From: a virus
Length of the DNA stretch: 31,581 nucleotides
IMG/VR virus record: IMGVR_UViG_3300017751_000111
Coordinates: 1-31,581 of that record
Direction: 5' to 3' (one strand)
Of this stretch, positions 1 through 16,421 are shown piece after piece. Made by a program: the position numbers and the translations under genes. Position 1 is the stretch's first letter. Each line of letters starts with the position of its first letter. Below the pieces are notes generated by a model. That model did not search any database. It saw only the letters and a program-made list of their open reading frames with translations, and was not told where the DNA came from.

Positions 1-2204
1 ACATAAGCGCAACATCAGGTTCAGGAGGATCAAGTGGTACTTCAGGTAATGCAGGTGAAGCGGGAGCAAGTGATGCAAGTAATACATCAGGTTCAAGTGG
101 TTCAAGCGGTACTAATGGTGATGCCGGTCAATCAGGTTTAAGTAACACTTCAGGTTCCTCAGGTACATCAGGTGATGATGGTACTTCAGGGATAAGTGCT
201 ACTTCAGGTTCAGGAGGATCATCAGGTACATCAGGAGATGCAGGTAATGCAGGTTCAAGTAATATAAGCGCAACATCAGGTTCAGGAGGATCAAGCGGTA
301 CTTCAGGTAACGCAGGTGTAGCAGGTTCAAGTAATGTAAGTGCAACATCAGGTTCAGGAGGTTCAAGTGGTACTTCAGGAGACGCAGGTGTAGCAGGATC
401 TAGTAACATAAGTGCTACTTCAGGATCAGGAGGTTCTTCAGGTACTTCAGGTGGTGCAGGCGTAGCAGGTTCAAGTAATATAAGCGCAACATCAGGTTCA
501 GGAGGATCAAGCGGTACTAATGGTGATGCAGGTAATGCAGGTTCAAGTAATGTAAGTGCTACTTCAGGTTCAGGAGGATCAAGTGGTACAAGTGGAGACG
601 CAGGTGTAGCAGGTTCAAGTAATGTAAGTGCAACATCAGGTTCAAGTGGTTCATCAGGTACAACTGGTATTATAGGTGGAAATGGTGAAAGTGCAGAAAG
701 TGGTTCAAATGGTTCTTCAGGATCAAGCGGTACATCAGGTAATGCTGGTAATGCTGGAGCAAGTGCTTTAAGTAACACTTCGGGTTCAGGAGGTTCTTCA
801 GGTACTTCAGGTAACGCAGGTGTAGCAGGTTCAAGTAACATAAGTGCTACTTCAGGTTCAGGAGGATCAAGTGGTACTTCAGGAGACGCAGGTGTAGCAG
901 GTTCAAGTAATGTAAGTGCAACATCAGGATCAGGAGGATCAAGTGGTACAAGTGGAAATGCAGGTGTAGCAGGTTCAAGTAACATAAGTGCTACTTCAGG
1001 ATCAGGAGGTTCTTCAGGTACCTCAGGTAATGCGGGAGCAAGTGCTTCAAGTAATACAAGTGGTTCATCAGGTTCAACAGGTACTTCAGGTAATGCTGGT
1101 AATGCTGGAGCAAGTGCTTTAAGTAACACTTCAGGTTCAGGAGGATCATCAGGTACATCAGGAGATGCAGGTAATGCAGGTTCAAGTAATGTGAGCGCAA
1201 CATCAGGTTCAGGAGGTTCTTCAGGTACTTCAGGTAATGCAGGCGTAGCAGGATCTAGTAACATAAGCGCAACATCAGGTTCAGGAGGTTCAAGTGGTAC
1301 TAGTGGTGCAGCAGGAGCTAGTGCTTCAAGTAATACTTCAGGATCAAGTGGTTCAGCAGGATCTTCAGGTACTGCAGGTGCTGCGGGAAATAGTAAAACA
1401 AGTAATACTTCAGGTTCAAGTGGTTCATCAGGTACAAGTGGTGTTGTAGGTACTGGGGGTGGAAGTGCAACAAGTAACACTTCAGGTACTTCAGGTTCAA
1501 CAGGGTCAAGTGGTATAGGTGGAGCTGGTGGAGTATCGGGAGGATCAGGTTCAGCAGGTACCTCAGGTACTTCAGGATTAAGTAATACAAGTGGTTCATC
1601 AGGTTCAGCAGGTACTTCAGGTTCAAGTGGTGTCGTAGGTGGGTCAGGTGCTTCAATTACAATCACTACTCAAAATGATTTGTTAATTGATGGAGCTACT
1701 TCAAATACACTAGATACAAGTAGAACTCTTAGTATTAATAATCCATTTAGATTAGGACAAGATAGAACCAGTAACTCAGGAAATATAGAATACTCAGTTC
1801 CTTCAGCAGTAAACAACCAAAGTGGTGAAATTATATTTACTGGTAAAGGTAATGGAGGAACTACTCCAGCTTTTGGAGATATTCTAGTTTTGGATCAAGG
1901 ATTTTGGTATAAAGCCCAAGGTGATGATGTTGCTACTTCAACTGGAATAATGGGTATTTCTTTAGGTACTAACCCAACATTAGATGGAGTTTTAATAAGA
2001 GGAATGTTTAGAACAACAAAATCATGGGGGTTAGGAGGTGGAGAACCTTTTTATCTATCAACTACATCAGCTGGAAATGGACAATCTTCAGCTCCAACAA
2101 CCTCAGGAGATATTGTTAGAATAGTTGGGTATGAAATATATGTAAGTGGATCTAATAGGTTATATTATATATGTCCTGATAATACTTGGATTGAACTTGC
2201 TTAA
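1..2204 (+). CDS. Collagen-like, Gly/Ser/Thr-rich phage fibre protein (5'-truncated)
   Basis: The reading frame is open from the window edge (first whole codon at 3) to the stop at 2202-2204, about 734 residues, and its true start lies upstream. Up to about base 1650 it is built of Gly-X-X triplets rich in Ser, Thr and Ala (GSG-GSS-GTS-GNA-GVA-GSS), broken regularly by N(I/V)SATS. The remaining C-terminal part, from about GASITITTQND onward, is an ordinary mixed beta-type domain. Its 'PFYLSTT...GDIVRIVGYEIY' stretch resembles C-terminal domains I associate with phage fibre and virion-surface proteins. I infer a long thin tail or head fibre with a C-terminal receptor-binding or trimerising knob. 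It stands 12 bases before a methyltransferase gene and upstream of four sugar-transfer genes, so the Ser/Thr repeats may be glycosylated. GTG at 1191 is not a convincing start because the repeats continue upstream in frame. Confidence 0.85.
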   Translation, partial: ISATSGSGGSSGTSGNAGEAGASDASNTSGSSGSSGTNGDAGQSGLSNTSGSSGTSGDDGTSGISATSGSGGSSGTSGDAGNAGSSNISATSGSGGSSGTSGNAGVAGSSNVSATSGSGGSSGTSGDAGVAGSSNISATSGSGGSSGTSGGAGVAGSSNISATSGSGGSSGTNGDAGNAGSSNVSATSGSGGSSGTSGDAGVAGSSNVSATSGSSGSSGTTGIIGGNGESAESGSNGSSGSSGTSGNAGNAGASALSNTSGSGGSSGTSGNAGVAGSSNISATSGSGGSSGTSGDAGVAGSSNVSATSGSGGSSGTSGNAGVAGSSNISATSGSGGSSGTSGNAGASASSNTSGSSGSTGTSGNAGNAGASALSNTSGSGGSSGTSGDAGNAGSSNVSATSGSGGSSGTSGNAGVAGSSNISATSGSGGSSGTSGAAGASASSNTSGSSGSAGSSGTAGAAGNSKTSNTSGSSGSSGTSGVVGTGGGSATSNTSGTSGSTGSSGIGGAGGVSGGSGSAGTSGTSGLSNTSGSSGSAGTSGSSGVVGGSGASITITTQNDLLIDGATSNTLDTSRTLSINNPFRLGQDRTSNSGNIEYSVPSAVNNQSGEIIFTGKGNGGTTPAFGDILVLDQGFWYKAQGDDVATSTGIMGISLGTNPTLDGVLIRGMFRTTKSWGLGGGEPFYLSTTSAGNGQSSAPTTSGDIVRIVGYEIYVSGSNRLYYICPDNTWIELA
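192..1334 (+). repeat. 72-bp (24-codon) tandem repeats inside the fibre gene
   Basis: Seven units start at 192, 264, 336, 408, 480, 552 and 624 with exact 72-base spacing, each opening with an ATA or GTA codon followed by Ser-Ala-Thr-Ser-Gly. Further units start at 840, 912 and 984, and two more at 1191 and 1263, with shorter irregular Gly-X-X blocks between them. A related partial copy starts at base 3. Every unit is a multiple of three, so copy-number change keeps the frame. The end coordinate is approximate because later units degrade into irregular triplets. Confidence 0.85.
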
Positions 2205-2216
2205 AAATTTAATATT

Positions 2217-2786
2217 ATGGAATATATATCCCAAAGTTTAACATTTGAAGAAAGTAAAATATTATTTACACATCCCTTTGATGTAAACGATGAATATCAA
2301 GTAATGATGGATTGGGAAGATACTTTAATGTCAGCATCTGCCGCCTATGCTTGCGAAGGAGGGGGGGATATTCTTGAAATAGGATTTGGAATGCATATAT
2401 CTGCTGATTATATTCAATCTCATAGTATTAATTCCCATACAATTATTGAAAACCATCCAGACATACTCATTAAAGCAAATGAATGGGCAGCGGATAAACC
2501 TAATGTAACTATAGTAGAAGGAGATTGGTATGATATAAAAGATACTTTAAGTACTTATGATGGGTTATTTTATGATACTTATGGAGATGATAATATGCAA
2601 TATTTTGCAGATTCATTACCTTCACTAATGAATGAAGGTGGAAAAGCTACTTGGTGGAATAATATACCTAGTAGTAGTAATTATTATGGAATATCTAATG
2701 TTGTTTATGATATCCATAATGTTAACCCCCCACAAAATAGTTATTTTAACCATAAAGAATATTATTTACCTAAAAAACAGTTTTAA
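2217..2786 (+). CDS. GAMT/RMT2-like SAM-dependent methyltransferase
   Basis: This is a 189-residue class I methyltransferase. Motif I is DILEIGFGMHISADYIQ at residues 51-67, preceded by QVMMDWEDTLM at 29-38. IIENHP (76-81) would hold the acidic residue that binds the SAM ribose, and FYDTYGDD (118-125) follows. The combination (V)MM-x-WE, LEIGFGM, IIE-x-HP and F/Y-DTY is what I know from guanidinoacetate N-methyltransferase and the fungal arginine delta-N-methyltransferase Rmt2. The family call is fairly firm, but the substrate is not: guanidino or arginine groups are the family precedent. It starts 12 bases after the fibre stop and ends 3 bases before the next gene, so it is co-transcribed with both. 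Methylation of a fibre arginine, or of a small guanidino compound, are both possible. Confidence 0.72.
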   Translation: MEYISQSLTFEESKILFTHPFDVNDEYQVMMDWEDTLMSASAAYACEGGGDILEIGFGMHISADYIQSHSINSHTIIENHPDILIKANEWAADKPNVTIVEGDWYDIKDTLSTYDGLFYDTYGDDNMQYFADSLPSLMNEGGKATWWNNIPSSSNYYGISNVVYDIHNVNPPQNSYFNHKEYYLPKKQF

Positions 2787-2789
2787 ATA

Positions 2790-3494
2790 ATGGCGACATT
2801 TACTCAAGCAACAAGTGGATTTGGTGTAATCCTGGGGCAAGTTACTACAGGATGGACTAATGTTCGTAACCTTAGTACAGGAACTTCAGTAAGCCAAGGA
2901 ACAATAAATAATTTTTCAAGTTGTGGTGTTGGTGTTTTTTCTGGAAGAGGTGCACCAACAAACCGTATATGTAGAACATTTGGATGGGCCGATTTATCAG
3001 CCTATGCTCCTAATATAACAACACTTTCTTTTGATTTACAATCCCATTATGTTAGCAGTGCAGGTTTAAATGCAGTTGATTGTATAGTTTGTGAAAGTTT
3101 TGCTTATAGTAATGCAGCTAGTACAACTCTATCAGCCTCAGACTTTAACATAAGTGGTGGTTGGAATGTAAACAAAACTTATTCTTCATCTACTTCTTGG
3201 GTAAGCACTCCATTTTCACTTACAGGCAATTCGACTGCTATATCAGATGCAAATTCTCAAGGTTATATTAATTTTGTAGTAATTAATAATACTTATGATT
3301 ACTTTGATATAGACCCTGGTGCTGCTCCTGTAAATCTTTTTGGTGGTGTTAATCTAACCCCTGCAAATAATGATGTAAGTGGAAATTATAATGCGGGTTA
3401 TCCAAATTACTTAAATGGAATAAGTGTGCTTGTAACTGTAGATAATATTAATGATGTAGGTACTTCTACTATAGATAACATAAATGATGTTTAA
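2790..3494 (+). CDS. Beta-rich probable virion surface protein, function unknown
   Basis: The 234-residue product is rich in Ser, Thr, Asn and Gly with alternating hydrophobic residues and few charges, the composition of an all-beta fibre tip or decoration protein. I recognise no catalytic motif and no signal peptide. The C-terminus carries a short duplication, DNINDV-GTSTI-DNINDV, encoded by the last 60 bases. It starts 3 bases after the methyltransferase stop and lacks a Shine-Dalgarno sequence, so translational coupling is likely. Position between fibre and glycosyltransferase genes suggests an adhesin or fibre-associated part. This is context only, and homology to a known fold would need a structure search. 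Confidence 0.55.
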   Translation: MATFTQATSGFGVILGQVTTGWTNVRNLSTGTSVSQGTINNFSSCGVGVFSGRGAPTNRICRTFGWADLSAYAPNITTLSFDLQSHYVSSAGLNAVDCIVCESFAYSNAASTTLSASDFNISGGWNVNKTYSSSTSWVSTPFSLTGNSTAISDANSQGYINFVVINNTYDYFDIDPGAAPVNLFGGVNLTPANNDVSGNYNAGYPNYLNGISVLVTVDNINDVGTSTIDNINDV

Positions 3495-3554
3495 TAGCTT
3501 GGATATGTTATAATTTTTACTTATATTGGTTAAATAGTTTTAAAAAAGTGTTTT

Positions 3555-6269
3555 ATGAAAAAAATTTTAATCATTGCACCCCACTTATCAACTGGGGGGC
3601 TTCCACAATATTTAACAAAAAAAATAGAATTATTAAAAGAAGAATTTAATATTTATTTAGTTGAATGGAATGATTCTACTGGGGGTAAACTAGTAGTACA
3701 AAAAAATAAAATAAAAAACTTATTACCTAAAAATAATCTTTTTACATTTGGGGAAGATAAAACAGAATTATTTAATATAATTAATAAAATTCAACCTGAT
3801 ATTATTCATTTAGAAGAAATTCCTGAATATTTTATGGATGATAATATAGCTAGAAAATTATATTCTGTAGATAGGGATTATTTTTTAGTTGAGACTTCTC
3901 ATGATTCTTCAATGAATACAGATAATAAACTTTTCTTTCCTGATAAGTTTATGTTTGTATCTAACTGGCAAATAGATCAGTATAAAAACATAGATATACC
4001 TAAAATATTAGTAGAATATCCAATTGAATATACCCTACGCCCTGATAGAGTAAGTGCTTTAAAACGCTTAAACTTAGACCCATCAAAAAAACATATTCTA
4101 CACATTGGTTTATTTACTTCTAGAAAAAATCAAAAAGAATTTTTTGAGTATGCAAGAGCTTTACCTGAATATGAATTTCATAGTGTAGGAAATCAAGCCG
4201 ATAACTTTAAATGGTATTGGGAACCCTTAATGAAAGAAAAACCTGATAATTTAACATGGTGGGATGAAAGAACAGATGTTGAAAATTTCTACCAATCAAT
4301 GGATTTATTTTTATTTACATCTAGGGGAACAGCTAATGATAAAGAAACAATGCCTCTAGTTATTAGAGAAGCTCTATCATACCAAATACCACAACTATTA
4401 TATAATTTAGAAGTTTATCAAAATTATTTTGATAGCTATGATTCTATTAATTATTTAGACTTTAATGATTTCGATAAAAATGTTTCATTAATTAAAAATC
4501 AATTTAATAATTCTGCTGAAATATTTGAGGAAGAAGAAGCATATGTTGTTTGTACCTACCCAGAAACCCAAGCTGTTGTAGATACAACTATAGAATGTAT
4601 AAAAGCTTTAAGAAAAGAAAGTAATCGAAAAATAATAATTTCAGCACACTGTCCAGTTCCTAAAGAACTCCAAGATATGGTTGATTATGTATTTTATGAA
4701 AAAAATAATTTATTAACAAAACATACATTTTATTCAGGGTATTGGATGAGAGGAAACCAATATGATACTCATGTTAATTTAAGAGGTGAGGATAATGATA
4801 GATATCATGGACCAGCTTGTTATACTTCATTTTATAATCCAGCAACATTTGCAAAAAACCTAGGGATTAAAAAATTATACTATATCAATTTTGATTATAT
4901 ATTAAAAGATAAATCCCATATAGATTATGTTTCAAATAAATTAAATAATCATGATGTTTACTTTGGAGAAAATATAGCACAAGAAGGCAATTGCTATTTT
5001 ACATATTTTTTTGGAGCTAGACCAGAAGCTATTTTAAACCATTGCCATTTTATTGAAGATGAAAACCAGTATAATAGTTTAATGGGTAAACATGGTGCTG
5101 AGTCTAATGGTATTGAGAATTTATATTACCATATATTTAAAAATAATAAAAACAGTTTTATTGAAACTAGAGAAAAATTTGAAAGTGATGTAGAAAAATA
5201 TTTTGATTTTAAAGATTATTCAATGGTTGAATATTATACTATCCTTCCTACGGATGTTGACAATCATTTTTGCCCCTGGATAACTATTTCTAATGCTAAA
5301 GAAAGCAAAGATATTTATTATACTGTAGAAAAGAATGGAGAAACTATTATTAATAGGTTATTAGAAGTTAGAGGGAAGTATCATTTTTGGGATTTAATAA
5401 AATATGATTTGAATGATTTATTTACAGTTACATTTGATGTTAGAGATACTGTAACAGGAGAAACAGTAAAATACCATAAATTTGAATTAAATCAAGAATA
5501 TTTTTCAAATATAATGCCAGATAATGGTATGTTTAATTGGAAAGGAGATAGAAGTAGATATAATCCTAAAATTAAATTACTACATTTAGTAACAGACCCA
5601 AAAAATAATAAAAAAGAACAAAGGTCAATAAATAATTTAAAAGAATTCTGCAATAATACGGGAATTATATATGATATGAGGGTGAATAAAATATGGAAAG
5701 AATTACCCCCATCAGAGAATTGCCACAGACCAGAACATATATCTTTAACCCCTGCTCCTATAGGAAATGGTTTTGGAAAATTAACTCCAGGTCATTATGG
5801 GTGTTACTTAGCTCATAAAAATGCTATATGTTTAGATGATAATAAAGATTATGATTTTATTTTAATTTTTGAAGGCGATACTATTGTAGATTCTGACATT
5901 GAAGAATTATACAACTCTTTATTTAGATTTAATAATATAGCTCTTGCTGAAGGTTTAGATTTAGTTGGGTTTGGTAATCCCCCAACATCTACAAATATTA
6001 AAGGTAACAAAAATCAAGACGTTTATTGTGATGTGATACCTTTTGTACCAGCACAATCATATTTAATACCTAATAAAAGTTTAAGTAATTGGAAAGAAAA
6101 ACTAGAAAACAAAAAATGGGAAGCTTGGGATTTATGGATTATGAATATAGGACAAATGAAATCGGGAATAGCTGAAAAAGTTTATACTAAACACCTCCCA
6201 GGATTTAGTTTAGTTGATCAGATTGAAAAAAATAAAGATAATGATAACCCCTTAATATTTACTGATTAA
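3555..6269 (+). CDS. Multidomain glycosyltransferase (GT-B domain, middle GT-A-like domain, GT25-like domain)
   Basis: The 904 residues appear to hold three parts. Residues 1 to about 320 look like a GT-B (GT4-type) enzyme: ILIIAPHLSTGGLPQYL at the start, HILHIGLFTSRKNQ, then the ETMPLVIREALSYQIP acceptor-side motif. Residues about 330-640 are a separate region (YVVCTYPETQAVVDTTIECI...) that reads like a nucleotide-sugar (GT-A) or glycan-recognition domain, with KLYYINFDYILKDKSHI in the place of a DXD-bearing strand. Residues about 670-904 resemble GT25 (LPS biosynthesis) enzymes: LTPGHYGCYLAHKNAI followed by FILIFEGDTIVDSD. The ATG overlaps no upstream gene (60-base gap). The stop overlaps the next ATG by one base (TAATG), so the set is translationally coupled. 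No signal peptide or membrane helix is visible, so it should act in the host cytosol. Specific sugars cannot be read from sequence. Confidence 0.75.
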   Translation: MKKILIIAPHLSTGGLPQYLTKKIELLKEEFNIYLVEWNDSTGGKLVVQKNKIKNLLPKNNLFTFGEDKTELFNIINKIQPDIIHLEEIPEYFMDDNIARKLYSVDRDYFLVETSHDSSMNTDNKLFFPDKFMFVSNWQIDQYKNIDIPKILVEYPIEYTLRPDRVSALKRLNLDPSKKHILHIGLFTSRKNQKEFFEYARALPEYEFHSVGNQADNFKWYWEPLMKEKPDNLTWWDERTDVENFYQSMDLFLFTSRGTANDKETMPLVIREALSYQIPQLLYNLEVYQNYFDSYDSINYLDFNDFDKNVSLIKNQFNNSAEIFEEEEAYVVCTYPETQAVVDTTIECIKALRKESNRKIIISAHCPVPKELQDMVDYVFYEKNNLLTKHTFYSGYWMRGNQYDTHVNLRGEDNDRYHGPACYTSFYNPATFAKNLGIKKLYYINFDYILKDKSHIDYVSNKLNNHDVYFGENIAQEGNCYFTYFFGARPEAILNHCHFIEDENQYNSLMGKHGAESNGIENLYYHIFKNNKNSFIETREKFESDVEKYFDFKDYSMVEYYTILPTDVDNHFCPWITISNAKESKDIYYTVEKNGETIINRLLEVRGKYHFWDLIKYDLNDLFTVTFDVRDTVTGETVKYHKFELNQEYFSNIMPDNGMFNWKGDRSRYNPKIKLLHLVTDPKNNKKEQRSINNLKEFCNNTGIIYDMRVNKIWKELPPSENCHRPEHISLTPAPIGNGFGKLTPGHYGCYLAHKNAICLDDNKDYDFILIFEGDTIVDSDIEELYNSLFRFNNIALAEGLDLVGFGNPPTSTNIKGNKNQDVYCDVIPFVPAQSYLIPNKSLSNWKEKLENKKWEAWDLWIMNIGQMKSGIAEKVYTKHLPGFSLVDQIEKNKDNDNPLIFTD

Positions 6270-7228
6270 TGAAATTAAATATATGTCATGTAGACCCAGC
6301 TTGTGGTTTAAATATACCCCCTAAAAATTGGGGAGCAATAGAAAAAATTATTTGGGAGTTTGAAATAAACCAAACATTATTAGGTCATAATTCTACCCAC
6401 AAATTAGAAGCTAAAATCCAACCTGGAGAGTTTGATATTGTACACTGCCATGTGGCTAATTTAACTAAAGGTTTAAGAGAAAGGGGTATACCCTATATCT
6501 ACCAATTACATGATCATCATGTTTTACATTATGGTCCAAATTCCAATGTATACAAAGAAAATCTAGAGGCAATTGAAGGTTCATTAATATCTTTAATGCC
6601 TGCTAATTGGTTAGTTGATTATTTTAATCACCCTAAATGTGTTTATTTTTCTCATGGGGTTAATATTGATGAGTTTTATCCTAAAGAAATTATAAAACCA
6701 ACCCCTGCAAACCCAAAGTTACTAATGTTAGCTAATAATGGTTTAGGGGGAGATGAAGCCTTTGACAGAAAAGGATTTGAATATGGTTTAGGTTTAGCTA
6801 TGATTAATAATTTAGAAATTACTATAGCTGGGCCTTCTAATAATAAAAACTTTTTTAATAATCACATTTGGATGTTAAACTACCCTAAATTAAATTTGGT
6901 ATTTGATACACCTAATACTAAACTCCTTGATTTATACCACCACCATGATATTTTTATCCACCCTACAATGTTAGAAGCAGGACATCCTAATTTAACAATG
7001 TTAGAAGCTTTAGCTGCTGGGTTACCTGTTATTGCTGATTGGGAAATGGAAGTTGATTTACATGGATGTTGGAGATCACCCCGTAATATTTTTGAAATGG
7101 ATAAGGGTTTAAAAGATATTTTAAATATTTGGTCTGATTATAGAGAAAAAGGTTTAGAAACAGCTACTAATTTATCTTGGTTAAATAGAACAAAAGAATT
7201 AATTAAAATATATAAAAATCATATATGA
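6269..7228 (+). CDS. GT4-family glycosyltransferase
   Basis: The 319-residue protein has the order of a short GT-B retaining enzyme. The N-terminus reads KLNICHVDPACGLNIPPKNWGA (acceptor-side Rossmann entry), with DIVHCH in the middle. YFSHGVNIDEFYP marks the inter-domain linker, KLLMLANNGLGGDEAFDRKG starts the second Rossmann domain, and HPTMLEAGHPNLTMLEALAAGLPVIA is the donor-binding EX7E-type motif. It is shorter than most GT4 enzymes (usually 350-400). It shares a base with the stop of the upstream gene and overlaps the downstream FkbM gene by four bases (ATGA). Like its neighbours it has no signal peptide. Donor and acceptor are unknown. Confidence 0.82.
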   Translation: MKLNICHVDPACGLNIPPKNWGAIEKIIWEFEINQTLLGHNSTHKLEAKIQPGEFDIVHCHVANLTKGLRERGIPYIYQLHDHHVLHYGPNSNVYKENLEAIEGSLISLMPANWLVDYFNHPKCVYFSHGVNIDEFYPKEIIKPTPANPKLLMLANNGLGGDEAFDRKGFEYGLGLAMINNLEITIAGPSNNKNFFNNHIWMLNYPKLNLVFDTPNTKLLDLYHHHDIFIHPTMLEAGHPNLTMLEALAAGLPVIADWEMEVDLHGCWRSPRNIFEMDKGLKDILNIWSDYREKGLETATNLSWLNRTKELIKIYKNHI

Positions 7229-7863
7229 AACGTAATACCCGTTTAGTTAGTATAAAAAATACCCCTATGATGATATTTGAGGGGCCTGAATGCATATCAG
7301 ATGATATAGTTAAATATAATGATTTTTGGGAATTTAATTTGTTTAACTGTTTTAAACAATACTTTCCAAAAGAAGGATTAATGTTAGATATTGGAGCTAA
7401 TATAGGTGCTCATTGTGTACAATTTAAACATTATTTTCCTGATTTAAAAATATGGGCTTTTGAACCTTTTTTTGAAAATTATAACCTATTAAAAACTAAT
7501 ACTGATAGGTATAATGATGTTCATTGTTTTAATGTGGGGGTAGGAAGTAATAATTCAATGGTCCATTTTGGGGGTGAAGAAGAAAAAAACTCAGGAGTAG
7601 TAAAAGTTGTCCCTAATGGTAATATTACTAATTTAGTTATGGCTTTAGATTCAATTTCTTTCCCTGAACCTATTAAATTTATCAAAATTGATATAGAAGG
7701 CCATGAATTATCTGCTTTTGAGGGTATGAAAGAAACTATATTAAAATATAAACCTCTAATATGGTTAGAAGATAATAAAAAAACAGCAGTCTCCTATTTG
7801 GAAAAATTAGGATATAAAATAATTTTAAAACAAACCGCAACTAACGATTATTTAATGGTATGA
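7225..7863 (+). CDS. FkbM-family SAM-dependent methyltransferase
   Basis: The 212-residue enzyme has motif I LDIGANIGAH at residues 54-63, an acidic residue after the second strand (WAFEPF, 77-82), and the FkbM hallmark IKIDIEGHE at 153-161. FkbM enzymes O-methylate hydroxyl groups on sugars and secondary metabolites, and are common in glycan loci. Here it sits inside a four-gene glycosyltransferase run, joined by ATGA overlaps on both sides. I infer capping or modification of the sugar chain made by the flanking enzymes by O-methylation. Start chosen for the ATGA coupling and because no upstream in-frame alternative is needed. Confidence 0.88.
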   Translation: MKRNTRLVSIKNTPMMIFEGPECISDDIVKYNDFWEFNLFNCFKQYFPKEGLMLDIGANIGAHCVQFKHYFPDLKIWAFEPFFENYNLLKTNTDRYNDVHCFNVGVGSNNSMVHFGGEEEKNSGVVKVVPNGNITNLVMALDSISFPEPIKFIKIDIEGHELSAFEGMKETILKYKPLIWLEDNKKTAVSYLEKLGYKIILKQTATNDYLMV

Positions 7864-9059
7864 AAGAAATTTTAGTAAAAGAATATAATAATTTAATTAA
7901 AAAACCAATTAAATCTTTATTTCCCACAAATAATATTTATAGCACTTTTGTTAATGGGGCTAAAATTGAAATTTTAGGGGATATAAAGAAAAAATATAAA
8001 GTTCAGTTTATCGATAGAAACACAAATAAACTTCTTCATGAAACAGAAATAAGTAATAATATGTGGTCTAAACTAAATAAACAATACTATATTGATTGTT
8101 TAATTAAAATAATAGATTTAGAAACTAATGAAATAATAGAACATACATTTAATGCAGGGGATAAAAAAGTTTATATACACTTTGCTTCAAAAGCTTTAGG
8201 TGATACTATAGCGTGGATGCCATATGCCGAAGAATTTAGAAAAAAACATAAATGTAGATTAATTGTATCAACATTCCATAATAAAATGTTTGAAGAAAAT
8301 TACTCAAACATTGAATTTATTGAACCTGGAACTATCCAAAAGGATTTATATGCTATGTATGAGGTAGGGTGGCATTATAATGAAGAAGAAAAAATTGATT
8401 ATAATAGAAATCCTTTAGACTTTAGAAAAATTCCATTACAAGGGGCAGCCTATAGCATTTTAGGACTAGAATCAAAAGAAATTAAACCTAAACTAACATT
8501 TAAAAATACAGGATCTACTATAGAAGGTGATTATGTGGTTATAGCACCTCATGGTTCAGCTCATGCTAAGTATTGGAATCGAAAAGATGGATGGCAAACT
8601 GTAATAAATTATTTAAATAATAAAGGCTACAAAGTAGTAATGATTACCCAAGAACCCTTAGGAGATAAGTGGCATGATTCTAAATTAGGAGGTACTTTAA
8701 CAGGGGTTATTGATAAAACAGGTAACCACCCTCTAAGTGAAAGAGCAAATGATATAATGAATGCTAAAGCATTTATAGGTATTGGAAGTGGTTTAAGTTG
8801 GTTAGCTTGGGCTTTAGAAACACCTGTAGTTATGATATCTGGATTTAGTGAAGCCTATAGTGAATTTGAAGATTGCGAAAGAATATCTCCTCCCAAAAAC
8901 AAATGCTCAGGATGTTTTAATAGAATAAGGTTAAACGGTGGGGATTGGGAGTGGTGTCCTGACCATAAAGATACAGATAGGATGTTTGAGTGTACTAAAT
9001 CAATAACACCCGATTTAGTAATAAATTCTATAAACAATCAATTATTAAAAAGTTTTTAA
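7860..9059 (+). CDS. TibC/BAHT-like protein O-heptosyltransferase (GT9-related)
   Basis: The 399-residue product matches the plan of bacterial autotransporter heptosyltransferases. An N-terminal beta domain (about residues 1-100) is followed by a GT-B catalytic core starting VYIHFASKALGDTIAWMPY (104-122), whose Asp in GDT (115) is the expected base. VVIAPHGSAHAKYWN (226-240) is the nucleotide-binding entry, and FIGIGSGLSWLAWALETPVV (305-324) is the heptosyltransferase donor loop. A four-cysteine finger follows: C349-x2-C352, C366 (EWCPDH) and C378 (FECT). TibC and its relatives use such a finger to bind iron, and transfer heptose to Ser side chains of repetitive autotransporters. The gene closes the modification cassette, 60 bases before the tail block. 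Substrate inference: the Ser/Thr-rich fibre repeats encoded at 1-1650. The donor sugar in this host is unknown. Confidence 0.82.
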   Translation: MKEILVKEYNNLIKKPIKSLFPTNNIYSTFVNGAKIEILGDIKKKYKVQFIDRNTNKLLHETEISNNMWSKLNKQYYIDCLIKIIDLETNEIIEHTFNAGDKKVYIHFASKALGDTIAWMPYAEEFRKKHKCRLIVSTFHNKMFEENYSNIEFIEPGTIQKDLYAMYEVGWHYNEEEKIDYNRNPLDFRKIPLQGAAYSILGLESKEIKPKLTFKNTGSTIEGDYVVIAPHGSAHAKYWNRKDGWQTVINYLNNKGYKVVMITQEPLGDKWHDSKLGGTLTGVIDKTGNHPLSERANDIMNAKAFIGIGSGLSWLAWALETPVVMISGFSEAYSEFEDCERISPPKNKCSGCFNRIRLNGGDWEWCPDHKDTDRMFECTKSITPDLVINSINNQLLKSF

Positions 9060-9121: not shown

Positions 9122-9373
9122 ATGGAAAGCAAAGTTCTAACAAAAGAAGAAATTCAAACACTAACCGAATTAAAAGAAAAATATAATAAGTTAGTAATAG
9201 TTTTAGGTGAAACCGAAGCCCAAGTAATGGATTTGGAGTTAAGGAAAGAACAAATTAAATCTAATTTAATTACCCTTAAACAAGATGAAGTGAAGATAGG
9301 GAAAGAATTAGAAGAAAAATATGGAAACGGAACTATTTCATTAGAAAGTGGTAAGTTTTCTCCAACAGAGTAA
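9122..9373 (+). CDS. Small coiled-coil protein, function unknown
   Basis: The 83-residue protein is dominated by a charged helix (residues about 6-68, many Glu, Lys and Leu in heptad-like spacing: LTELKEKYNKLVIVLGETEA), ending in a short Gly/Ser-rich tail. No enzyme motif is present. It lies directly before the sheath gene and behind two copies of the putative late signal, so it is probably a late gene. A role in tail assembly or as a chaperone is possible but unproven. There is no Shine-Dalgarno sequence. The next Met is at about residue 36, so the first ATG is the only reasonable start. Confidence 0.7.
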   Translation: MESKVLTKEEIQTLTELKEKYNKLVIVLGETEAQVMDLELRKEQIKSNLITLKQDEVKIGKELEEKYGNGTISLESGKFSPTE

Positions 9374-9426: not shown

Positions 9427-12033
9427 ATGGCAGAAACATTAATTTCCCCAGGAGTATTAGCAAGAGAAAATGATCAATCCCAGATTACTTCTCAACCAAT
9501 ACAGGCTGGTGCAGCGCTAGTAGGACCAACCGTAAAAGGTCAAGTCAATATTCCAAAACTTATAACTACTTATAGTGAATACCAAGCTAATTTTGGTACT
9601 ACTTTTGAGAGTGGTTCTGTAAATCAGATGGATGAATATACTTTCTTCACATCAATTTCAGCATATAACTACTTCACAAACGGTGGTACATCATTAATTG
9701 TTACTAGAGTAGCATCAGGTGATTTTACATCAGCAACTTCTTCAAGAATTTTTAATGACGTAGAAAGTGGAAATATTCCACCAGCTACTGATTTATTTGG
9801 TTCTTATACTTCAGGAGGTAGTGATGGTACAGCAGGTACTTATGTAGGTAAACCAACAACAGTATCTCCAGCAGGAGGAACTGGTTTAACCGTAACAGTA
9901 GTAACTAACACAGCTAACGGAAAAATTAAAACAGATGCTGATCAGCTTGTGCCTGGAATTTCTACAAACACTGTAGTTGCCGGGGCAGAAGTATATCCTG
10001 GAGTATCATTAACAAATGCTGGTGGTACTGATGGAAGTGGAGCCATAGCTACTGTAACAGTAACAGGAACAACTGCTCCAACGGTAACTGGTATAACAAT
10101 TACAAATCCTGGATCAGGATATGTAGATACTGACCAATTATCAATAGCAGGAGGATTATTAGGAACTGGACAATTAATAAATGATGGTACTAATATACTT
10201 AGTATATCTAACGGAGCTTCATATAACATTGGTGGTGGAGCACCAGCAACTGGTTTAGCTACTACAGTATCTCCAGCAGGAGGAGAAGGAGCTACAATTG
10301 ACGTAACATCAGATGGAACAAATGTTTCAGTATTAACAGTTGAAAATATTGGTACTGGTTATTCAGATGGTGATGTAGTAAATGTTTCTCAAGCAGCTTT
10401 AGTTGCCGCTGGGTTTGCATCAGCAGCTGCGGGTGGTATAGACATTACATTAGGTAGTGCAAACCTCCAAAACTCAGGAGAAGTAATAATTGATGTAGCA
10501 GAAACTGATTTATTAGTAGAAGTAGCATCTATAACAACTGTAGCAGAAGGTACAGGATATGCTATAGGTGATGTAGTAACAGTAGCGGCAGCAGAAATAG
10601 GTACCCCAACAGCTGACTTAGTAGTAACTTTAGTAGATGCTGACATTACAGATGAAAATGCTTTCACATTAGAAACAATGGGTGAAGGTATAATTATGAA
10701 TAGTGCTGGTGATGAAGCATCAACAGGAGCCCTAACAAATGGTACATCAGATAATATTAGATGGGAGATAGTTTCTCCAAATACATCATCAGGTACATTT
10801 AGTGTAGTTATTAGACAAGGTAATGATAATACAAGATCAAAATCAGTACTAGAAAGCTTTAATAATGTATCATTAGATCCAAAATCTTCAAATTATATTT
10901 CAAGAATAATAGGTGATCAAAAACAAGTAATTAGAGGATCAGGAACAGATGTTTATTTACAAACAACAGGATCATTTGCTAATGCTTCAAGATATGTAAG
11001 AGTAAAAGAAGTTAAATTTAAAACTCCAGACTATTTAGATAATAGTGGGATAGCAAAAGATCAATACACAGCTTCTATACCAGTAGCGGCTTCAGGAACA
11101 TTTGGAGATGCAGTAGGTACCATTTTAACAGGAACTGGTAAATATTACCAATATATTACTGGAAATGATACTCAAGGATTAGTAGGAAGTGATTATACAA
11201 CAGCTTTTAACATATTAGCTAATAAAGATGATTTTAAATATAATCTCATCTCAGCTCCAGGATTATACCAATCAGATTATAGCTCAGTATTAAATACTTT
11301 AATTGCAAATACTGAAAATAGAGGAGATAATATTGTAGTATTAGATCTTGAAGCTTATGCTTCATCAATAACAGCAGTAAGTACTACAGCAGCCGCTCAA
11401 GATACATCATATGCAGCTTCATATTGGCCTTGGTGTATGGTAACTGATCCAGATTCAGGACAAAGAGTTTGGGTACCAGCAGGAACATTAATTCCAGGAG
11501 TTTATGCTAACAATGATAGAACAGCAGAAGCATGGTTTGCTCCAGCAGGTATTAATAGAGGTGGATTAGGTCAAGTAATTCAAGCTGAAAGAAAATTAAC
11601 TCAAGCTAATAGAGATACATTGTATACAGGTAAAGTAAATCCAATAGCAACATTCCCAGGAAGAGGAGTTGTAGTATTTGGACAGAAAACATTACAAAAT
11701 ACAGCAAGTGCTTTAGATAGAGTTAATGTTAGAAGATTGCTTATTGCCCTTAAAAACTATATTTCTCAAATATCTGATAATTTAGTATTTGAACAAAATA
11801 CAGCAGCAACAAGAAATATATTCTTAACACAAGTTAATCCATACCTAGAATCAGTACAACAAAGACAAGGTTTATACGCGTTTAAAGTTGTAATGAACGA
11901 TTCAAATAATGGACCTGACGTAATTGATAGAAATGAATTGAGAGGTGCTATATACATTCAACCTACAAAAACAGCAGAATTTATATACCTAGATTTCAAT
12001 ATTCTTCCAACAGGAGCTGAATTTCCTGCATAA
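9427..12033 (+). CDS. 18: Tail sheath protein (T4 gp18-like) with a large repetitive insertion
   Basis: At 868 residues this is clearly longer than T4 gp18 (659). Residues 1-110 are a typical sheath start (ISPGVLARENDQSQI..., AALVGPTVKGQ..., YNYFTNGGTSLIVTRV). The C-terminal half, from about residue 440, carries the conserved assembly domains and ends NELRGAIYIQPTKTAEFIYL-DFNI. Between about residues 135 and 410 lies an insertion of low-complexity beta repeats with a GxGYxxGDxxxV theme (PGSGYVDTDQLSI, IGTGYSDGDVVNV, EGTGYAIGDVVTV). Two 21-base stretches coding for TVSPAGG are identical (9859-9879 and 10264-10284). Sheath subunits form the contractile outer tail, and the insertion probably faces outwards. 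The gene is followed directly by the tube gene, as in T4. Confidence 0.93.
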   Translation: MAETLISPGVLARENDQSQITSQPIQAGAALVGPTVKGQVNIPKLITTYSEYQANFGTTFESGSVNQMDEYTFFTSISAYNYFTNGGTSLIVTRVASGDFTSATSSRIFNDVESGNIPPATDLFGSYTSGGSDGTAGTYVGKPTTVSPAGGTGLTVTVVTNTANGKIKTDADQLVPGISTNTVVAGAEVYPGVSLTNAGGTDGSGAIATVTVTGTTAPTVTGITITNPGSGYVDTDQLSIAGGLLGTGQLINDGTNILSISNGASYNIGGGAPATGLATTVSPAGGEGATIDVTSDGTNVSVLTVENIGTGYSDGDVVNVSQAALVAAGFASAAAGGIDITLGSANLQNSGEVIIDVAETDLLVEVASITTVAEGTGYAIGDVVTVAAAEIGTPTADLVVTLVDADITDENAFTLETMGEGIIMNSAGDEASTGALTNGTSDNIRWEIVSPNTSSGTFSVVIRQGNDNTRSKSVLESFNNVSLDPKSSNYISRIIGDQKQVIRGSGTDVYLQTTGSFANASRYVRVKEVKFKTPDYLDNSGIAKDQYTASIPVAASGTFGDAVGTILTGTGKYYQYITGNDTQGLVGSDYTTAFNILANKDDFKYNLISAPGLYQSDYSSVLNTLIANTENRGDNIVVLDLEAYASSITAVSTTAAAQDTSYAASYWPWCMVTDPDSGQRVWVPAGTLIPGVYANNDRTAEAWFAPAGINRGGLGQVIQAERKLTQANRDTLYTGKVNPIATFPGRGVVVFGQKTLQNTASALDRVNVRRLLIALKNYISQISDNLVFEQNTAATRNIFLTQVNPYLESVQQRQGLYAFKVVMNDSNNGPDVIDRNELRGAIYIQPTKTAEFIYLDFNILPTGAEFPA

Positions 12034-13736: not shown

Positions 13737-16421
13737 ATGGCTGATCAAAAAGACATACAAAATCAAAAGGATCTCAATAATGAGATGTCTCAAACTAAAT
13801 CCAATCAAAAGGATATTAATAAGGAGATGTCCATAACTAAATCTTTTGAAGAACAAATTATTGACCTTTTAAGTAAAAGAAGAGGAATTAATTCTGATGT
13901 ACTTTCAGATCAGCAAGATATAGCAAATACTCTCCAAGATCAAGTTAAACAACAAAAATTCTTAAACTCAGAAAAAAAATTAGCTAGAGATATATCAAAC
14001 CAGATTACAAAGATAGCACAAGACACTTATGCAGTTACTAAAGATGAATTAGGTCTGACCCAAACAAATTCTAAATTAAAAAAACAACAACAAACTTTAG
14101 AAAAAAATATTATTTTAGCAAAACAACAACAAGCTAAATTTTCTAAAATGTCTTTAGAAGGAGATATAGAAAGTAGAAAATTAAATGCTGAAATTGCTAG
14201 ATCATTAGGAGAACAAGCTAAACAAGCACAAAAAACAAGTACACAAATAGATTCAATTGCAAAAGGTTCTGAAGGAATATCAAAAGCTTTAGGGGTTAAA
14301 ACCTTTGGTGGTTTATCTGAAATAATGGAAAAAGTCCCAGGATTAAGTAAATTTAGTGGTCCTTTTAAAGAGGCAGCAGAAGCTGCTAGGGAACATGGAG
14401 CAGCTGAAATTGAAAGAAACATGGCTGTAAATAAAGGGATAAGTGAATATAAACAGCTAAGAGCAGAAGGTGTAGGGATGTCTGAAGCTATGAAACAAGC
14501 TGGGGTTAATGCTAAACAAATTAAAGTAGGTGAATTACCTTTAAAAGCCCCTGGAACCCTCAAAGCAGGTTTTAAATCTTTAGGACCTGCCATTGCTAAA
14601 GCATTTGGTCCTATAGCTTTAGCAACTACAGCATTGAATATGGTAATTAAAGCCTTTAAATCTGCTGACCAATCTGCAGGTCAATTAGCTAAAAGTCAGG
14701 GAATATCATATGAAGAAGCACGTAAATTTAATCAAGAAATTGCTGACTCAGGAGTAACAAGTGGTAAACTGTTAACTAATACTAAAGATGTAGTAGCTGC
14801 CCAAATAGAATTAAATAAAATATTTGGAACATCTCTTAAATTTTCAAATGAATTTGCAGCTGAATTTTCAGAAATACAAAAAAGAACAGGTCTATCAGGA
14901 CATGCAATGGAATTATTTGCTGAAAAAGCAATGTTAGGTGGAACTTCTATACAAGATCAATTAGAAAAAGTTACAGCTGTTACTCAAGAATTAAATGCCC
15001 AAAATTCAATTTCACTAAGTGCTAAAGACATTCAAGAAGGTATTGGTCAAATGTCAGCTTCCCAAATATTAAATAATAAAATGAATACCAAAGAAATGGC
15101 TAACCAGGTATTTCAAGCTAAAATGTTAGGTATTTCTCAATCTCAATTAGAAGGTGTTCAAAGTAAGTTATTAGATTTTGAAAGTTCAATTGCAGCTGAA
15201 ATGGAAGCTGAATTATTAACAGGTAAACAACTTAATTTAGAAGGAGCTAGAGCCGCAGCATTAGCAGGTGACCAAGCTAAACTAGCAGCTGAATTAAGAA
15301 AAGAAGTAGGTACAGCTGCTGAGTTTGGGGCAATGAATGTAATCCAACAAGAAGCAATGGCTAAAGCATTTGGGTTGTCTAGAGATGATATGTCTAAAAT
15401 GTTAATAGAACAGGAAAAACTTGCGTCTCTACAAAAAGCATTTGGGGGTGATGTTAAAACAATGAGTGAGGCCCAAGCTGAATATAATAGATTATCAGCA
15501 GCCGGTGAATTAACAGAAAAGAAAAAGAAAGAATTAGCTGAAGCAGGAGTATTAGATCAACTAGAATCAGTATCACAACAAGAAAAATTAACTGCTATTA
15601 CTGAAAAGTTAACAGATTTATTTATTCAACTAGCTGACCCATTAATTCCTGTAATCAGTAAAATTATGGATATAGGAGCAGCAATAATTCAATTTGTAGC
15701 ACCAGCATTTAAAATGCTTGGAAAAGTAATTGAAGGTATAATGGTTGTCCTTCAACCTATAGTCGATGCCTTTATGCTTATAGGAGAATTAATTGGTTCA
15801 TTCTTTGACCCAACACAATCATTTTTTGACACTTTAAGTGAAGCTGATCCTTTAGTACAAGGTTTAGCTGTAGCTTTTGGAATTGTAGGAACAGCTTTAG
15901 TAGTATCTATTTTACCATCTATTGCAGCTGCTGTAATTTCAATGGGGGCACTTGCTATTGAAGCCGGTATAGCAGCAGTTGCAGCAGTCACCAGTGCATC
16001 AGCAATGACTTTAGGTGTTGGAGCAATTGCAATAGCTGCTGGTATAGCAACAGTAGTAGCTGCTATGAGTAGCGCTGAACCAGCAGGTGATATGTTTTCT
16101 CCAGCTGATGGTAGAACACAAGTATCAACAAAAGAGGGTGGATTATTTGAACTTTCCCCAAATGATGATTTCATGGCGGCTCCGGGTATATCTAATATGA
16201 TGAGTAGTAGTAACCCTACACCACCATCAACTCCACCAGCAACCTCATCACCTACAAGTAATACCTCCCAACAAGGGACAACTCAATCTAACCAACAGTT
16301 AGTAGAATTAAACGCTAAAATGAGTAGGTTAATATCAATTATAGAAAAAGGTGGTGATGTTATTATAGATGGAGCTAAAGTAGGTAAATCATTAGTATTA
16401 GCATCTTCTAAAATAGGTTAA
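13737..16421 (+). CDS. Tail tape measure protein
   Basis: At 894 residues this is longer than T4 gp29 (590). The first ~180 residues are polar, Gln/Lys-rich coiled coil. They start with a 14-residue tandem duplication (QKDLNNEMSQTKSN / QKDINKEMSITKSF). A long helical middle follows (MSEAMKQAGVNAKQIKVG..., LNNKMNTKEMANQVFQAKML). Between about residues 630 and 780 there are several hydrophobic segments (AFGIVGTALVVSILPSIAAA, MTLGVGAIAIAAGIATVVAA), the membrane-active part common in tape measures. The C-terminus has a Pro/Ser/Thr linker and a final amphipathic stretch (MSRLISIIEKGGDVIIDG). Position after the chaperone and before baseplate genes fits. It sets tail length and is ejected during infection. 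Confidence 0.88.
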   Translation: MADQKDIQNQKDLNNEMSQTKSNQKDINKEMSITKSFEEQIIDLLSKRRGINSDVLSDQQDIANTLQDQVKQQKFLNSEKKLARDISNQITKIAQDTYAVTKDELGLTQTNSKLKKQQQTLEKNIILAKQQQAKFSKMSLEGDIESRKLNAEIARSLGEQAKQAQKTSTQIDSIAKGSEGISKALGVKTFGGLSEIMEKVPGLSKFSGPFKEAAEAAREHGAAEIERNMAVNKGISEYKQLRAEGVGMSEAMKQAGVNAKQIKVGELPLKAPGTLKAGFKSLGPAIAKAFGPIALATTALNMVIKAFKSADQSAGQLAKSQGISYEEARKFNQEIADSGVTSGKLLTNTKDVVAAQIELNKIFGTSLKFSNEFAAEFSEIQKRTGLSGHAMELFAEKAMLGGTSIQDQLEKVTAVTQELNAQNSISLSAKDIQEGIGQMSASQILNNKMNTKEMANQVFQAKMLGISQSQLEGVQSKLLDFESSIAAEMEAELLTGKQLNLEGARAAALAGDQAKLAAELRKEVGTAAEFGAMNVIQQEAMAKAFGLSRDDMSKMLIEQEKLASLQKAFGGDVKTMSEAQAEYNRLSAAGELTEKKKKELAEAGVLDQLESVSQQEKLTAITEKLTDLFIQLADPLIPVISKIMDIGAAIIQFVAPAFKMLGKVIEGIMVVLQPIVDAFMLIGELIGSFFDPTQSFFDTLSEADPLVQGLAVAFGIVGTALVVSILPSIAAAVISMGALAIEAGIAAVAAVTSASAMTLGVGAIAIAAGIATVVAAMSSAEPAGDMFSPADGRTQVSTKEGGLFELSPNDDFMAAPGISNMMSSSNPTPPSTPPATSSPTSNTSQQGTTQSNQQLVELNAKMSRLISIIEKGGDVIIDGAKVGKSLVLASSKIG
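13764..13847 (+). repeat. Two-copy 42-bp tandem repeat at the tape measure N-terminus
   Basis: Copies start at 13764 and 13806, each beginning CAAAAGGAT and encoding QKD(L/I)N(N/K)EMS(Q/I)TKS plus one variable residue. The 42-base period is a multiple of three, so the frame is kept. Confidence 0.7.

Follow-up and report, generated by a model that had tools for sequence, protein, structure and literature searches.

A TibC-like glycosylation cassette in a marine phage probably acts on the phage's own collagen-like tail fibre

Introduction

When a phage carries several glycosyltransferase (GT) genes directly beside a repetitive tail fibre gene, which molecule receives the sugars? This question is raised by IMG/VR record IMGVR_UViG_3300017751_000111, a linear stretch of 31,581 nt from a marine virus of bacteria that was analysed at its full length and is hereafter called the window. 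A fibre gene at its 5' end is followed by a cassette that includes a 904-aa multi-domain glycosyltransferase, a GT4 enzyme, an FkbM methyltransferase, and a homologue of the protein O-glycosyltransferases TibC and AAH. We propose that this cassette probably O-glycosylates the collagen-like fibre of the phage itself. A sequence-only reading of the same DNA had already suggested that the enzymes act on the fibre, and comparison with relatives, unrelated phages, and bacterial chromosomes lends strong support to the fibre as the putative substrate.

The window encodes a T4-like myovirus gene set (tail sheath, tube, baseplate, and UvsX-like and other replication genes), and its nearest isolated relatives by sheath are the Flavobacterium phages 'immuto' (52% identity). 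Because contigs of the same layout sit in metagenome-assembled genomes (MAGs) of Flavobacteriales and Winogradskyella (L243, L245), the host is likely a marine flavobacterium, with the reservation that MAG binning can be wrong.

Results

The two genes on which the argument turns are as follows:

3..2204, + strand: collagen-like Ser/Thr-rich tail fibre, proposed sugar acceptor (PF01391, 5e-24; PHROG tail fibre)
7860..9059, + strand: TibC/Aah-family protein O-glycosyltransferase of the collagen-linked clade, proposed initiating enzyme (TIGR04414; 4rap)

The fibre open reading frame (ORF) is incomplete, being open at the 5' end of the contig, and its product ends in a non-repetitive C-terminal head of about 188 aa. 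The Ser/Thr-rich repeat, as it had first been described, is Gly-X-Y and collagen-like: its 545 aa contain 94 G-X-Y-G-X-Y-G windows, against a maximum of 26 in 1000 composition-preserving shuffles. The region consists of 33% Ser, 10% Thr, and 30% Gly, with no Pro and a single Lys, and position X is Ser or Thr at a frequency of 0.76 while position Y is Ser at 0.53. The repeat unit measures 24 aa (a 72-nt period) and is present in about 15.6 copies, and non-Gly triplets recur about every 24 residues of this Pro-free repeat. An antisense shadow ORF (128-1666, - strand) lies over the fibre gene.

The TibC-like gene and its homologues are labelled GT9 in the following. The product of 7860-9059 reaches 325.4 bits with the NCBIfam equivalog TIGR04414 hepto_Aah_TibC (cut-off 200; positions 10-372 of 374), while models of lipopolysaccharide (LPS) heptosyltransferases give it at most 38 bits, and TibC (4rap) is matched over nearly the whole length of the protein (5e-61). 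The N-terminal beta-barrel falls below the Pfam cut-off (TibC_1st, E = 0.0049), and the phmmer alignment covers it from TibC residue 22. The residues of TibC that were found essential by mutation, and the roles of its residues, have been described (PMC4358343). Aligned to TibC, the window enzyme possesses the catalytic D115 (Asp110) and the donor contacts K237, R295, and W314 (K230, R286, and W305), and the remaining contact T226 is conservatively replaced by S233, leaving three of four identical. The iron-finger cysteines C349, C352, C366, and C378 (C339, C342, C358, and C370 in TibC) are invariant in 32 homologues, and the catalytic and donor-binding residues show little or no variation among 32 diverse viral homologues. 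Because the residues that TibC requires are present, there is good support for the predicted fold and class of chemistry.

A first set of relatives was formed by the loci of 80 close viral homologues, nearly all of which, where upstream DNA is covered, share the order collagen-like fibre, 904-aa enzyme, GT4, optional FkbM, TibC-like enzyme, ORF8, and sheath. Since these relatives were picked by the enzyme, controls were picked by the sheath, with near-copies removed and at least 5 kb of upstream sequence required. The co-occurrence that the sequence-only reading had proposed as a check was then found: a collagen-like fibre is present in 13 of the 17 sheath-matched relatives with the enzyme and in none of the 19 without it (Fisher p = 1e-6). 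One of the four loci with enzyme only is truncated by the end of its contig not far from the cassette, and the other three belong to a fused-enzyme subclade. Mapped onto the sheath tree, the module changes state about six times, with at least four of these changes forced; enzyme and collagen were therefore gained or lost together several times. A search of 14 whole control records gave the TibC-like enzyme in none and a collagen-like ORF in two, both of which reach the contig end. Around the sheath of isolate immuto, the 31 kb examined contain no collagen-like ORF, and a collection search gave no TibC-like gene for this phage. A tblastn search with the repeat region found no match in annotated phages, probably because of low-complexity masking, and Ser/Thr collagens without the enzyme were hence not surveyed there. 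Near GT9 genes, 102 of the 112 distinct collagen-like ORFs are Ser/Thr-rich (median Ser of 0.60 at Y, median Pro of 0), a composition that would fit sugar transfer to collagen-like repeats.

The pairing extends to other phages. A profile search returned at least 589 viral stretches with a TibC-like enzyme, whereas about 85,000 cellular genomes yielded only 16 loci with the search patterns used. Distant viral members belong to other phages, in which the sheath has diverged, lies tens of kb from GT9, or escaped detection; Ser/Thr collagen-like genes still adjoin GT9 there, often on the opposite strand. Mere synteny with the sheath is ruled out as the source of the link, as the pair lies far from any sheath in other phages and occurs without a sheath in bacteria. 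In the Microcystis phage Mel-JY01, a single 1226-aa protein combines GT4, a GT-A-like domain, and the TibC-like enzyme. The collagen-like fibre ORF of this phage, with X-Ser-Gly repeats (L082, PP395634.1; 2-3052, + strand), lies upstream of the fused enzyme, and the annotated 'hypothetical protein' coding sequence at 739-2298 on the - strand is an antisense shadow of it.

The same two genes occur together on chromosomes of Methylobacter, Methylomicrobium, and other Gammaproteobacteria, where about 50-2000 bases separate the enzyme from a small, exported-looking (GTS/GSS)n repeat protein. In 12 of 13 bacterial genomes, a collagen gene is found no more than 8 kb from the sole full-length GT9 (expected, 0.16). 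Collagens elsewhere in these genomes are mostly of the Pro/Ala/Thr type, with few Ser-rich exceptions. No other cassette glycosyltransferase was detected beside GT9 in most of the bacterial loci. This points to enzyme plus repeat protein as the minimal unit and to GT9 as the initiating enzyme, to which phages would add extension enzymes. Two-gene units of methanotrophs include L337 (6740-8942), where an exported-looking (GTS)n protein and a TibC-like enzyme stand downstream of an apparent mfd, as well as L247, L249, and L338-L340. A Nitrosotalea MAG (G010:C8, L263) holds a 970-aa X-Ser-Gly collagen, possibly of phage origin, on a different contig from the enzyme.

Lower-scoring enzymes of Methylococcales mostly adjoin long AIDA-like repeat proteins (repeat type read from sequence), and such partners are limited to the sister clade of the collagen-linked enzymes. 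Because the neighbours differ in this way, and because the GT9 tree separates collagen-linked from autotransporter-linked, classical TibC-like enzymes with support of 100/99, each clade appears to have its own repetitive, Ser/Thr-rich partner protein.

The companion genes of the cassette, and the gene that marks its right boundary, are the following:

2217..2786, + strand: GAMT-like S-adenosylmethionine methyltransferase (3orh guanidinoacetate N-methyltransferase, 8e-15)
2790..3494, + strand: protein without family match, possibly structural (position-matched relatives)
3555..6269, + strand: 904-aa multi-domain glycosyltransferase (PF00534, 6.9e-9; PF01755 in relatives; Foldseek)
6269..7228, + strand: GT4-family glycosyltransferase, proposed extension step (PF00534, 1e-7)
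7225..7863, + strand: FkbM-family methyltransferase, proposed optional cap (PF05050, 1.6e-13; TIGR01444, 73.6 bits, cut-off 37.7)
9122..9373, + strand: small protein before the sheath, right boundary marker (found at sheath loci whether or not they carry the TibC-like gene)

From the fibre onward the gaps are 12, 3, and 60 bases, after which the four enzyme genes overlap by 1, 4, and 4 bases. This arrangement had been read correctly from the letters, and the observation behind the sequence-only reading is confirmed, including its GT4 and FkbM assignments, while its interpretation is partly supported. The first methyltransferase is a methyltransferase as described, but its GAMT-like character is not that of a recognised sugar methyltransferase, and the glycan-capping role given to it gained no support; it is present in a few relatives, such as L002, L011, L013, and L243. 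Methyl capping as a general feature likewise gained no support, nor did a role in host recognition or shielding. Because FkbM was detected near only 17 of 97 GT9 genes, and some relatives' cassettes carry an epimerase or an additional FkbM, the cap is probably optional and the glycan probably varies between phages. One such epimerase, in L025 (5218-6219), is an NAD-dependent sugar epimerase inside the cassette whose best NCBIfam match is GalE, below cut-off. The product of 2790-3494 matched no Pfam or PHROG family, and similar genes stand at the equivalent place in L002, L007, L011, L013, L130, and L243. The ORF at 9122-9373 is ruled out as a cassette member, as it is kept in relatives that lack the cassette. 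No membrane-helix-like hydrophobic stretch was found in any of the four overlapping enzymes, as expected of soluble protein-modifying enzymes.

The 904-aa protein had been described as a three-part enzyme; it is indeed a multi-domain glycosyltransferase, but its parts are GT4 (1 to about 320), GT-A (about 325-555), a beta-sandwich (about 560-655), and a GT25-like GT-A (about 668-890). The domains beyond GT4 were taken from AlphaFold models with a mean local confidence (pLDDT) of 79.6 and 83.6 and a predicted template modelling (pTM) score of 0.46 and 0.58. Matches to the GT25 domain PF01755 were obtained in 15 of 20 relatives (best, 1.5e-5), with the window protein below the cut-off at 0.0077. 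The top Foldseek matches are human COLGALT1 (3e-13), LH3, the GT4 enzyme BshA, and mimivirus R655, a name that appears ten times in a paper on a mimivirus collagen galactosylhydroxylysyl glucosyltransferase (PMC9546862). Sequence profiles of both GT-A domains gave no credible relatives in the PDB, and the COLGALT1 link thus draws on fold and Pfam.

Discussion

We infer the acceptor residue, the order of steps, the chemistry, and the benefit as follows. In the cytoplasm of the infected cell, the TibC-like enzyme would act while the fibre is not yet trimeric and add a first sugar to Ser of the X-Ser-Gly repeats, with an ADP-heptose-derived sugar or another NDP-sugar as donor. The GT4 enzyme and the 904-aa GT4/GT25-like enzyme would then extend this sugar, and FkbM may O-methylate the glycan. 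The product would be a sugar-coated fibre rod. It is possible that the sugars replace proline or hydroxyproline in stiffening the Pro-free triple helix, and they may also change adsorption or shield the virion.

Several points weigh against fibre glycosylation as set out here. The support for it is genomic throughout, and the Fisher test counts kin phages as independent. The hydrophobic thumb tip that builds the TibC dodecamer, F265/V266, is not conserved, with Asp/Lys at the aligned places of the window enzyme and another conserved motif, WHDSKLGG, occupying this position in viral homologues; the stereoselectivity residue P300 of TibC corresponds to Gly309. With these differences the donor and the ring may depart from those of TibC, and of the TibC/BAHT-like heptosyltransferase named by the sequence-only reading the family stands, whereas the heptose gained no support. 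HldE, which supplies ADP-heptose, is present in methanotrophs and below cut-off or fragmentary in flavobacterial MAGs, so that ADP-heptose may or may not be supplied to the window phage. The COLGALT1 match holds domain by domain (E 1e-12 to 3e-13; TM-score 0.18-0.30; root-mean-square deviation about 20 A), and we thus treat it as a lead and not as a claim of membership. Moreover, hydroxylysine, the known acceptor of COLGALT1, is absent, with one Lys in the 545 repeat residues. Of the 112 distinct collagen-like ORFs in the vicinity of GT9, seven are poor in Ser/Thr. In L042, L043, L057, and L140 such collagens lie beside a full-length enzyme, and in L180, L367, and L369 the collagen repeats are essentially without Ser/Thr. 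Finally, the sequence-only reading had named enzymes without a repetitive fibre as the observation that would speak against it, and a minority of such cases exists: at least three records (LR756504, L085, and L386) carry GT9 with no collagen found in the whole record, as does L102 at Pfam level, where a short XSG repeat alone was found. In these exceptional members, either the acceptor differs or it sits outside the repeats. The enzymes of L180, L367, and L369 are fused proteins of about 760 aa with a C-terminal TibC-like domain and lie beside Pro-rich collagens. LR756504 (L084; 636 kb) and L085 (a 348-kb contig) are huge phages with a long-branch TibC-like gene. A rule that the iron finger implies a Ser/Thr collagen is not absolute, as P/Q-rich collagens occur.

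Alternatively, the enzymes could alter the LPS or capsule of the host against superinfection, with the fibre linked to them only through a shared variable host-interaction region. Glycosyltransferases near pelagiphage tail fibres have been interpreted in this manner (PMC7029224), and the GT25 and GT9 families both include LPS enzymes. We nonetheless regard this explanation as unlikely: only collagen-like fibres show the link, which is missing in sheath-matched controls, and the pairing recurs on bacterial chromosomes beside small collagen-like proteins. The GT9 score also places the enzyme with the protein-modifying TibC/Aah and far from LPS heptosyltransferases, and the four overlapping enzymes lack a typical membrane-helix segment.

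Another virion protein, such as the product of 2790-3494 or a different fibre, could be the target of a cassette that travels with the collagen-like fibre as one module. Structural proteins do adjoin the cassette in many relatives, and some members stand beside a Ser/Thr-poor collagen or none. This is improbable in our view, as many cassettes have no gene like 2790-3494 and the bacterial two-gene units hold a collagen-like protein and no virion protein. That the glycosyltransferases are coincidental cargo piled up in a variable region and functionally unrelated to the fibre, as their varying content (extra FkbM, epimerase, fused genes) might imply, is scarcely credible given 12 of 13 bacterial genomes against 0.16 expected, the Fisher p of 1e-6 in phages, and the 100/99 clade split.

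The preferred reading, glycosylation of the fibre, resembles the TibC/AAH systems (BAHT, TIGR04414) in the full-length homology of the enzyme, its catalytic Asp, three of four donor contacts, and four-Cys iron finger, and in a gene that adjoins a repetitive Ser/Thr-rich partner. In those systems, however, the partner is a beta-helix autotransporter with strand-loop-strand repeats, whereas in the window, in phages, and in cells it is a collagen-like Gly-X-Y protein. The window enzyme also differs by its separate clade and its changed thumb tip and P300, and phage enzymes are usually accompanied by extra glycosyltransferases. COLGALT1/GLT25D1, LH3, and R655 act on collagen, and among solved structures they match the GT-A/GT25-like half of the 904-aa protein best. 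Identity to them is about 10%, the domain arrangement is different, the phage enzyme adds GT4, and the repeat offers no hydroxylysine acceptor. BclA-type proteins are prokaryotic collagen-like surface fibres that are O-glycosylated (PMC8968730). In contrast to the phage fibre, BclA belongs to the Gram-positive spore surface and is served by other enzymes. Collagens of bacteria are usually rich in Pro and Thr, while the window fibre is Ser-rich and without Pro. Virion glycosylation in mycobacteriophages targets capsid and tail-tube proteins through enzymes unrelated to the phage cassette, and no collagen-like substrate is known there. Mycobacteriophage-encoded glycosyltransferases are thought to modify virion proteins, according to a report on Maravista (PMC11256854).

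More broadly, the chances seem evenly balanced that the collagen-dedicated clade of iron-finger TibC-like enzymes represents a previously unrecognised prokaryotic collagen glycosylation, in which the enzyme would act alone on bacterial X-Ser-Gly surface proteins, and on phage fibres in concert with further enzymes, a COLGALT-like GT25 among them, the Ser sugars stabilising the helix as proline and hydroxyproline do. TibC-type protein O-glycosylation itself is known; its direction at collagen-like proteins would be new. A literature search of titles and abstracts found no link of this kind between a heptosyltransferase and collagen-like proteins, and none between phage fibres and the heptosyltransferases of autotransporters. 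If the proposal is true, a substrate can be named for a large family of viral glycosyltransferases, found in at least 589 viral stretches and at 16 loci in cells, that otherwise would be labelled LPS-modifying. Collagen-like proteins would join the substrates of the TibC family, and the phage enzymes would gain a structural tie to the enzymes that glycosylate collagen in animals and giant viruses. Methylobacter and Methylomicrobium would also offer an uncomplicated two-gene system in bacteria, and Mel-JY01 an isolated phage, in which the proposal is open to direct testing.

Other features of the window

The tail sheath (9427-12033) comprises 868 aa, compared with about 570 aa in many relatives, which makes it roughly 300 aa longer, and it carries a repetitive Gly/Thr-rich insertion. 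A short tandem repeat of 42 bases lies at 13761-13843, close to the start of an 894-aa ORF.

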